From: Spirogloea muscicola
Lineage: Eukaryota; Streptophyta; Zygnematophyceae; Spirogloeales; Spirogloeaceae
Direction of reading: 5' to 3'
Assembly: GCA_009602725.1 (NCBI GenBank)
Contig: WELB01000140.1
Coordinates: 11,802-43,143, forward strand
Length of the DNA: 31,342 nt
Shown here in pieces: positions 21,707 to 24,700 of this stretch (its first letter is position 1; each line of letters begins with the position of its first letter). The position numbers and the translations under genes were made by a program. Below the pieces are notes generated by a model. It ran no database searches. It was not told the origin of the DNA and saw nothing but the letters and a program-made list of their open reading frames with translations.

Positions 21707-24700
21707 CTGTCACACACACACACACACACACACACACACACACACACACACACACACACACACACACACACACACACACACACACACACACACACACACA
21801 CACACACACACACACACACACACACACACACACACACACACACACACACACACACACACACACACACACACACACACACACACACACACACACACACACA
21901 CACACACACACACACACACACACACACACACACACACACACACACACACACACACACACACACACACACACACACACACACACACACACACACACACACA
22001 CACACACACACACACACACACACACACACACACACACACACACACACACACACACACACACACACACACACACACACACACACACACACACACACACACA
22101 CACACACACACACACACACACACACACACACACACACACACACACACACACACACACACACACACACACACACACACACACACACACACACACACACACA
22201 CACACACACACACACACACACACACACACACACACACACACACACACACACACACACACACACACACACACACACAGTATGACAAGAAACTTGTCTTATA
22301 TTTCAGCACACAGACAACATTTCAGCACACAGACAACCTTGACGACTACCAATGTAAGAAATGTTTGTCTGCAGAAATATTGACTGGGTCATAAGGTTGA
22401 TTGGGGCTTACAGCAATATTCACACCACATCGTCAATCTGACTACCATATTGACTACCATACAAATCTATTAAAATGTTTGTAATAGATTGCAGTTGAGG
22501 ACTCTGATGCAAGGTAACTGCTACATACCATTCTGCTCAGCTAAAGCACTCTCTCGGTAGTCTAGTGCAAAGTCTCGCTCAGCTGCATGCCCAATTCCAG
22601 CTCCAATAGCCTCTAACATATATGTGGCAGGGTTCTGGTCAGGTCCACACTTGGGCATCCCAGGAAGCGCTTCAAAGTAGCCCTGTCAGAGGGGTCACTT
22701 GTGATTGGCCGTCAGAAGCACAGGTTTGTGTAAAATACCAACAGCAGAGTGAGCATTGCAAGCGTGCTCTCGGTTGCTCTTGGTTTGAGACAGTAGACTT
22801 GGGGAAAAGCTGACCAGCAGACTTCGGAAAGCATTATTTCTGCAATACCCATGCAGTTGGAACGCCAGTGCTGGGCCATACCAGTAGATCACGGGCATTG
22901 AGCCCTATAGGACCAAAGTATGCAACCTCTCCCCCACGCTTGAGTAACAGGAGTTGGTCAAATGCCATAAATATCCTTCGACTTGGCTGGTGGATTGTGC
23001 AGATAATACTGCGCCCTGTTTGGACAATGTTCTGTATTCCCTTAACAACAATCTGCGCAGCTCTACTATCCAAGCCGCTGGTTGGCTCGTCCAAGAACAG
23101 GACGCTGGGATTGGCAACCTGTAATCAATAAGCATACAATGGCTTACACTTCAGTTGGGTATTCATCACCCAAAAACCACGCTGTGATAGCTGTGCTAAT
23201 CTACCAACCTCCATGACAGCCACAAAGATTGGCACTACAAGACTAAGTGATGCACGTGGAATAGCCATTGCATGTGAGGCACAAGTGGCATGGCAGAGAG
23301 GACCAGTGTTGAGCAGGTAGATGTATCACAATACCAGCTCAACCCCAATTGTCAGACGTTTTGCTTCTTCAACAGAGAGTCCCCCTTCACCAACAATTCC
23401 AACCAGCTTGTTTGCGATAGGTTGCAGCTCCAGCAAGTCCATGGTCTGGAGGGTATAAGTACCAAAACATGTCACTTCAACAACGTTGCAGGAGTACTGC
23501 ATTCACTTGCTTACCCAACTTGGAGATAGTGCATGTATCTGGCCAACAAGTAGATGGCTTCACCTGCTGCACAAAGGCATCTCTCATCTGCTGAGAGGTG
23601 TCACGTGGCAGCCGCAGTGCTCCGCTGAAGTCCAAAGATTCTCTTACAGTTATAAATGGAGTGTGGATGTCATTCTGCTCCACATATCTGCAGAAATCAT
23701 CTGGGCTTGCAGATTGTTATGGATATGAAGGGTTTCAATGGCAGCAGGTTGCTGAGCACTGTATGAAAGCTATATATGTGAAGTCAAATGTCCTCGTCCT
23801 CCTCATGCATAGGAATCTCCATAAGGTCGGACGGCCTCACCCGCGAATTCGAGCGAAGGTCTCAGCTACTTTGGGATAACCATTGACAAGGACATCACCC
23901 CTTGTTCGCCCAATGGTTTTGCGGCCAGCTAGAACATCCAAGAGAGTGGTCTGCAGAGAGAACAGGCTGTCAGATTTTCAACAGAGCAATGCATAGCAAG
24001 CTTTAAGAGAATCAGAGAATGAGTGAATCAAGGTGGAAGCAATGTCTGGCATTGCAATGCATGTTATCAACCTTTCCAGCTCCAGATGATCCCATGAGTG
24101 CGGTCATGGTGCCAGGTAATGAATAACCAGATACGCTGTTCAGTAGTAATCTTGGCTCCTTCACACCAGGGATGTCAACCTGTTGATACAGGCCAGCATT
24201 ATCAGCTGACAAAGGCCTCTACCAGCACAACAATGGAAGCCAGATCTATCAACTCTGGCACATTTGTGCACTGCTCAAGATGCAGCAGAAAGAAAAGGCT
24301 ACAAGAGGTCATTGATTGATCACCAAAAGCAGCATCTTGGGATAAGCATGTTAGGAGCTCTCCAAGTACTAGGGCTGGGTCAAAGTAGTGACATAGGATG
24401 TCTATCACAAGTAACAACAAATTGATCCGCGAGCTATAGAGTGCCCCTAGTCGTATTTCATTAGACTCTTTGCTGCAGTGCAGTCTTCAAAGTGCAGTTC
24501 TCTAAGTATGACGAAGGACTCCACATGCCAGATCAGCCACGTAGTGGCTGACAGGCAGAGGTCACGCCAACACAGCATAGCAGCAGTGGTGGTGCATTGT
24601 TGCTCTCTGCCAGGGCCTGACTTTCATGCTGCATATGATACTAGACCAGAGAAGACGTTCTTGAGATACTACTGCATGCAGGCATATATATGGCCTTTTA

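Follow-up and report, generated by a model that had tools for sequence, protein, structure and literature searches.

In one of three copies of a transporter gene of Spirogloea muscicola, a perfect run of 283 TG dinucleotides adjoins the 3′ splice site of intron 24. Our preferred reading, to which we give a probability of about 0.5, is that a TG microsatellite has expanded between the branch region and the acceptor in this copy, that it lowers the use of the acceptor, and that the other two copies supply the protein. The case belongs with the repeat expansions between branch region and acceptor, its length being uncertain. The window (the whole stretch of 31,342 nucleotides that was analysed) is part of contig C140 of a 153.1-Mb genome of 471 contigs, and the other two gene copies are found on contigs C157 and C13.

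The tract and its acceptor in three gene copies

On the forward strand the tract is a single perfect (CA)283 run of 566 bp at 21711–22276, which in the sense of the minus-strand gene reads (TG)283 and contains no A and no AG. All that stands 3′ of it in the gene sense is ACAG (21710–21707), the 3′ splice site of intron 24, followed by exon 25. The perfect 566-bp TG tract adjoining an acceptor was thus found as the preliminary description had given it. No N bases occur in the whole window, and a regular-expression scan of the window for CA, TG, GT, AC, GA and TC runs of at least 8 units and AT runs of at least 10 units detected no second dinucleotide run.

A gene model was obtained by dynamic programming on a three-way alignment of the copies, with a penalty for broken frames and for splice sites not common to all three. 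It comprises 32 exons and 1553 aa on the minus strand, some exon borders other than those discussed here being rough. Intron 24 (21707–22528, minus strand, as are the other features of this gene) spans 822 nt where the other two copies both have 235 nt, and exon 25 (21559–21706) has 148 nt compared to 145 nt in those copies. Exon 24 (22529–22682) has a secure 3′ boundary with the donor G|GTATGT and an approximate 5′ boundary, which lies at 22669 in the gene model and at about 22682 when judged from the open frame after CTGACAG. The two exons join in phase 1 as AAT G|AG GAG GAG (N-E-E-E-L-Q-K-L).

To characterize the host gene, a 201-residue query was joined by hand from exons of the window, covering part of the second half of the transporter. 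Its best three matches among solved structures were to chains named CDR1 or pleiotropic ABC efflux transporter of multiple drugs (1.3e-33, 6.5e-31 and 1.2e-29), and one Pfam family, ABC2_membrane_7, was assigned to it with 24.2 bits against a cut-off of 22.7. By similarity, the host gene is a full-size ABCG/PDR-type transporter, PDR being the family name that we assume for it.

Searched with the translation of exons 24 and 25, the genome gave nine matches (15 of 15 candidates scored), including two close copies and three distant relatives at 35–36%. The copy on C157 is 100% identical in exon 24 and 91% in exon 25, and that on C13 96% and 85%, respectively. Across about 11.9 kb the three copies can be aligned, with long pieces that are 85–89% identical. 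Both C157 and C13 carry the donor GGTATG and the acceptor ACAG|AGGAGGA as in the window copy, with the same four bases before the exon and without the tract; their introns end in ...TTCTTGTCATATTGTGCTCTGTGACAG|AGGAGGA and ...TTTCTTGTCACATTGTGCTCTGTGACAG|AGGAGGA, respectively. The 421-bp stretch directly 5′ of the tract was found at three genome sites (three of three candidates scored), and only the site on C140 has the tract. Since two tract-free copies keep the same intron and acceptor, the acceptor is genuine, and the tract is a peculiarity of the window copy. A wrong exon call or a wrong acceptor was ruled out by the joint kept in C157 and C13, and the earlier identification of exon 25 and its acceptor held, the model from the three-way alignment also placing the exon at 21706–21559.

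Intron 24 of the window copy differs from the other two in further details upstream of the tract. An exact tandem duplication of 19 bp (two copies, UG-rich, 22300–22337) is missing from the other gene copies, and CTGCAG (22369–22374), a possible cryptic acceptor, is present in this copy only; its use would lead to a stop after seven codons. TATAAG (22295–22300) is a weak possible acceptor; if it were used, the reading frame would stay open through the tract, encoding (Cys-Val)n, and continue into exon 25. A perfect 6-bp hairpin, GACAAG-TTT-CTTGTC (22281–22295), lies 4 nt upstream of the tract. This hairpin may help slippage; by eye, a near version of it is present in C13 and none in C157. Elsewhere in the window, about 137 bp at approximately 20377–20513 are absent from both other copies, as judged by alignment breaks.

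A helicase gene neighbours the transporter at about 9 kb on C13 and C157 and at 10 kb on C140, in the same orientation. In the window its minus-strand frames lie at 12000–14600, where we take the motifs to be helicase-like, and one stretch of these frames has syntenic counterparts on C13 and C157. As this neighbour is found 9–10 kb away in the same orientation on all three contigs, the transporter copies are syntenic. Matches to RRM domains likewise often occur in threes with near-equal scores, for example on C27/C180/C28 and C1/C70/C79. Because helicase and transporter are triplicated syntenically and the RRM matches come in threes, the assembly seems to contain three diverged gene sets, that is, a hybrid or triplicate genome.

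We then compared the changes unique to each copy, with four codons skipped in the counts. The window copy has 77 synonymous and 45 nonsynonymous unique changes (pN/pS 0.18) and no stops, compared to 89 and 12 (0.04) in C157 and 66 and 28 (0.13) in C13. Modelled exon 1 accounts for 15 of the 45 nonsynonymous changes of the window copy, and of the changes unique to it, 16 synonymous and 4 nonsynonymous ones fall in exons 25–32. In the introns (5327 sites) unique changes per site are similar, at 0.077, 0.065 and 0.073 for the window copy, C157 and C13, respectively. Under the model, which was fitted to the window copy, C157 and C13 show one stop each, and there is a frame difference in modelled exon 30; we took these as faults of that model. 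With no stops and a pN/pS of 0.18, the window copy was ruled out as a pseudogene. On these counts it has been constrained since the three copies parted, but the tract may be much younger. Its pN/pS, the highest of the three, could be a sign of slight relaxation.

Displacement of the putative branch region and predicted outcomes of splicing

The preliminary description held that the usual polypyrimidine tract is entirely replaced by UG repeats. We found it displaced instead: the polypyrimidine stretch TTTCTTGTC survives upstream of the tract, where the old 3′ end of the intron (TTTCTTGTCATAC, 22277–22289) now lies, displaced from the acceptor. The tract occupies the place of the short TG-bearing stretch TTGTGCTCTGTG of the other copies, between TTTCTTGTCAY and ACAG. 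The UNAY motif TTGTCAY is common to the three copies and is positioned at −19 in C157 and C13 and at −574 in the window copy. By its four-base motif and its position, TTGTCAY is a candidate branch point. CTTAC, a better fit to the branch motif, is also present in all three copies (at −74, −75 and, in the window copy, −649), where it is followed by two, three and four AGs.

Polypyrimidine loss was rejected as the main feature of this intron. Between −25 and −5 the pyrimidine fraction of window intron 24 is 0.52, compared to 0.67 in C157 and C13, and 0.52 is the median over the 31 modelled introns of the gene, some of them roughly modelled (intron 24 ranks 11 of 31). Since the pyrimidine stretch is displaced and not replaced, the distance from branch to AG is the more telling anatomy. 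The AG-free zone extends from the AG ending at 22290 to the acceptor at 21707 and exceeds 150 nt; at the frequency that AG has in the intron upstream, 33.7 AGs would be expected in the tract, where none is observed. Because A is missing from the tract, an adenosine branch point has to lie at least 572 nt from the AG, the A of ACAG itself being the one exception. A TG expansion is one of the few kinds that lengthen the gap between branch and AG without creating an earlier AG.

In an RNAfold prediction, which includes ordinary base pairs only, the structure was below all 20 shuffles (z −8.1), and five bases around the acceptor paired with an upstream UCUGU. It is apparently the local hairpin that matters in this result. 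We rejected a looping-out of the tract by RNA pairing, as five pairs are too few to close a loop of about 600 nt.

The reading frames define what each outcome of splicing would produce. Canonical splicing of intron 24 restores N-E-E-E-L-Q-K-L, whereas retention of the intron leads to a stop after two codons. Skipping of exon 25 leads to a stop after four codons, which bears out the earlier remark that it would break the frame.

On the preferred reading, slippage expansion inside intron 24 of this one copy has widened the gap between branch region and acceptor. The branch point would have stayed upstream of the tract, so that the spliceosome must reach a first AG at least 572 nt away. Use of the acceptor would then most likely be slow and incomplete, with some transcripts retaining the intron or skipping exon 25 and running into early stops. 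The copies on C157 and C13 would supply the protein, and as these two syntenic copies lack the tract, output would be buffered. Tract length would thus passively tune one of three copies, with no sign of a dedicated switch. The three copies in one assembly form a natural experiment, since the intron has 235 nt in two of them and in the third a long UG run separates the branch region from the same acceptor. It bears on how far the spliceosome can reach across a run free of A and AG, and on whether UG repeats close to an acceptor disturb splicing or do no more than make the intron longer.

Dinucleotide tracts across the genome and the length of the tract

As a repeat the tract cannot be put down to chance, but it does not stand alone in the genome. 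To place it among its kind, perfect TG tracts of at least 34 bp with a readable 3′ end were searched by tract end, and 53 (25 + 28) were measured. The window tract is the second longest of these, after one of 573 bp; at least 11 more have no readable 3′ end, and a longer one among them is possible. Of the measured lengths, 42 are up to 125 bp, one is 171 bp and ten are 273–573 bp. The survey is incomplete, 11 of the 35 tracts beginning with GT having no readable 3′ end; these presumably run into N or a contig end. Of the 2136 matches of a 192-base TG pattern, 1046 are not accounted for by these 53 tracts, and a tract longer than that of the window may be among them. With 320 sites ending in AG-not-A, tracts of AG are commoner, and those of at least 190 bp are plentiful (8003 overlapping matches), which ruled out long tracts as a speciality of TG. 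A sample of 60 AG tracts comprised 46 of up to 125 bp, two of 184–185 bp, one of 270 bp and eleven of 315–515 bp.

These lengths bear on a further reading, which overlaps with the preferred one and which we rate somewhat below even odds: the tract is real in kind, and its length was made by the assembly, the true length exceeding about 125 bp. A pure repeat beyond about 125 bp is too long for short reads to span, and lengths of 270–575 bp would then be written when pieces are joined or gaps are filled. TG and AG tracts indeed share a gap at about 126–270 bp. When tracts with N within 3 bp were left out, none fell into this interval compared to seven at 271–415 bp (P ≤ 0.008, a bound for falling density, with intervals picked after seeing the data). 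This comparison is confined to tracts readable at both ends, and those missing from the survey do not affect it. The gap was weaker when N-adjacent tracts were kept (4 versus 10, P 0.09), with the tracts without a readable 3′ end still absent from the count. The measured long class begins at about twice the upper limit of the short class, and 573 bp is the greatest length among the 113 tracts of both kinds that were measured. N runs or single Ns adjoin six of the eight AG tracts of 401–580 bp, and N also adjoins all three tracts of 171–185 bp and the one of 270 bp. However, N adjacency is not special to long tracts, as it was found in 23 of the 46 AG tracts up to 125 bp and, among the ten long TG tracts, in only one. 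Further support for lengths made by the assembly comes from the tracts that lack a readable end and from the many pattern matches outside the measured set, whereas the complete lack of N in the window speaks against such an origin here.

In two unrelated repeats the gap falls at lengths like those of reads and the measured tracts reach no further than about 575 bp, both of which point to the assembly, and the gap common to TG and AG tracts suggests that lengths above 270 bp are partly made by it. The window tract is not singled out, the window being free of N, yet its length of 566 bp is not to be taken as measured. In reality the tract probably exceeds the length of a short read, because reads of about 125–150 bases that span it would have assembled its exact length. 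If the length is artefactual, the effect of distance on the acceptor would be smaller, and the case would serve as a warning on long perfect repeats in draft genomes.

Chance may be enough to bring a TG tract to an acceptor. The 31 modelled introns in about 11.7 kb correspond to one acceptor per roughly 370 nt of gene, and by our own estimate, if all 53 TG tracts were genic and randomly placed, about 0.7 of them would be expected to stop no more than 10 nt short of an acceptor of matching strand; this is an upper bound, as not all DNA is genic. Since about 0.7 is expected at random, the adjacency alone needs no selection. At another locus (L061:1464–1540), a TG tract of 71 bp is followed by ACACAG AGGAG, much like the acceptor in the window.

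Comparison with known systems and alternative readings

Among the matches listed in a non-exhaustive search of the open-licence literature, no paper came to our notice in which a natural UG run as long as this one adjoins an acceptor. The papers compared below are cited from excerpts. An intronic GTT repeat of about 6–19 units near an acceptor of Arabidopsis NTM1 goes with intron retention, which may feasibly stem from the distance between branch and AG, as the excerpt proposes (PMC12177298; Press et al. 2018). As in NTM1, a repeat array stands beside a genuine acceptor, and here it is absent from related copies and retention would be expected. In contrast, the NTM1 repeat is a triplet whose retention was suggested by RT-PCR in natural strains, while the repeat here is a dinucleotide and, as assembled, far longer (PMC12177298).

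Introns with distant branch points offer a likeness for a long AG-free stretch between branch region and first AG, and they support a reading that we consider rather unlikely, namely that intron 24 is spliced normally. The spliceosome would choose a branch point and the pyrimidine stretch on the 5′ side of the tract and scan the AG-free UG run to the first AG, perhaps aided by proteins that coat the run or by pUG folds that compact it. As far as the excerpt goes, distant branch points have been mapped up to 400 nt from the AG where the interval is free of AG, one is predicted at −566 for exon 11 of Fugu PTB, and an AG-free zone of 1126 nt occurs in human tyrosine phosphatase sigma (PMC1431707). 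In the window copy TTTCTTGTCAY stands at the 5′ end of the AG-free zone, with UNAY at −19 in the other copies, a correspondence of motif only. The gene is intact and constrained, and its tract contains no AG in 566 nt; intron 24 may splice normally from a distant branch point. The constraint on exons 25–32 fits normal splicing as well as it fits a recent expansion. On the other hand, at least 572 nt exceeds the mapped distances given in the excerpt, which also states that an AG-free repeat may lengthen the exclusion zone while the branch point remains close (PMC1431707); here no A is close by. Moreover, the introns compared differ from ours, in which a pure repeat in one of three gene copies is not conserved and the branch point is a candidate.

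Long UG RNA slowly forms compact double pUG folds, for which at least 12 repeats are needed, and human pUGs are said in the same excerpt to be enriched near splice sites (PMC12276007). With 283 uninterrupted repeats as assembled, the tract is well above this number, whereas the silencing role described concerns 3′ tails in C. elegans and not introns (PMC12276007). In the RNA of this gene, formation of the left-handed quadruplex of a pUG fold is hypothetical. A pUG fold and TDP-43 binding are mutually exclusive, according to a further excerpt (PMC12697283). In a variant of normal splicing, which we regard as improbable, the intron would be spliced efficiently with the branch about 574 nt from the 3′ splice site, (UG)283 being free of A and AG and packed into a string of up to 23 pUG folds that draw branch point and acceptor close to each other. 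Slippage would then be nearly neutral, which would explain why the host tolerates the tract in a constrained gene. However, the half-life for formation of the fold in vitro is given as at least 13 min (PMC12276007), which we take as slow for splicing.

The preliminary description had proposed tract length as a heritable switch on transporter output, and this proposal found no support in view of the genome-wide class of such tracts, the suspect length and the two syntenic copies without a tract. In human CFTR, a short TG run and then a T run precede the AG of exon 9. Here there is no T run, only 4 nt separate the TG tract from the exon, and the old pyrimidine stretch is found 5′ of the tract. 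Shared with CFTR exon 9 and TDP-43, as far as the excerpts describe them, are a TG run directly upstream of the acceptor and skipping that breaks the protein (PMC12171016, PMC4738331). A regulated switch of this kind, in which a UG-binding RRM protein on the tract lets length set the skipping of exon 25 and variability is selected, appears highly improbable to us. It would draw on the UG tract adjoining the acceptor, on the frame broken by skipping and on the many RRM domains of the host. A UG-repeat binder is also known from a green alga: CHLAMY1 of Chlamydomonas needs at least seven uninterrupted UG repeats (PMC3161734), and its targets as described carry UG repeats in 3′ UTRs, with an effect on translation (PMC3161734, PMC4419606). 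The window tract has the uninterrupted repeats in common with them, but it lies in an intron at an acceptor and not in a 3′ UTR.

The search for UG-binding RRM proteins that had been called for yielded RRM domains in number, with at least 126 matches among 150 of 301 candidates scored, and none of these matches was identified as UG-binding, which further argues against a switch. The N-domain of TDP-43 (PF18694) gave no match in the host; 14 control genomes were equally silent, and this result is hence uninformative. One of the RRM loci, L135, presumably resembles a poly(A)-binding protein.
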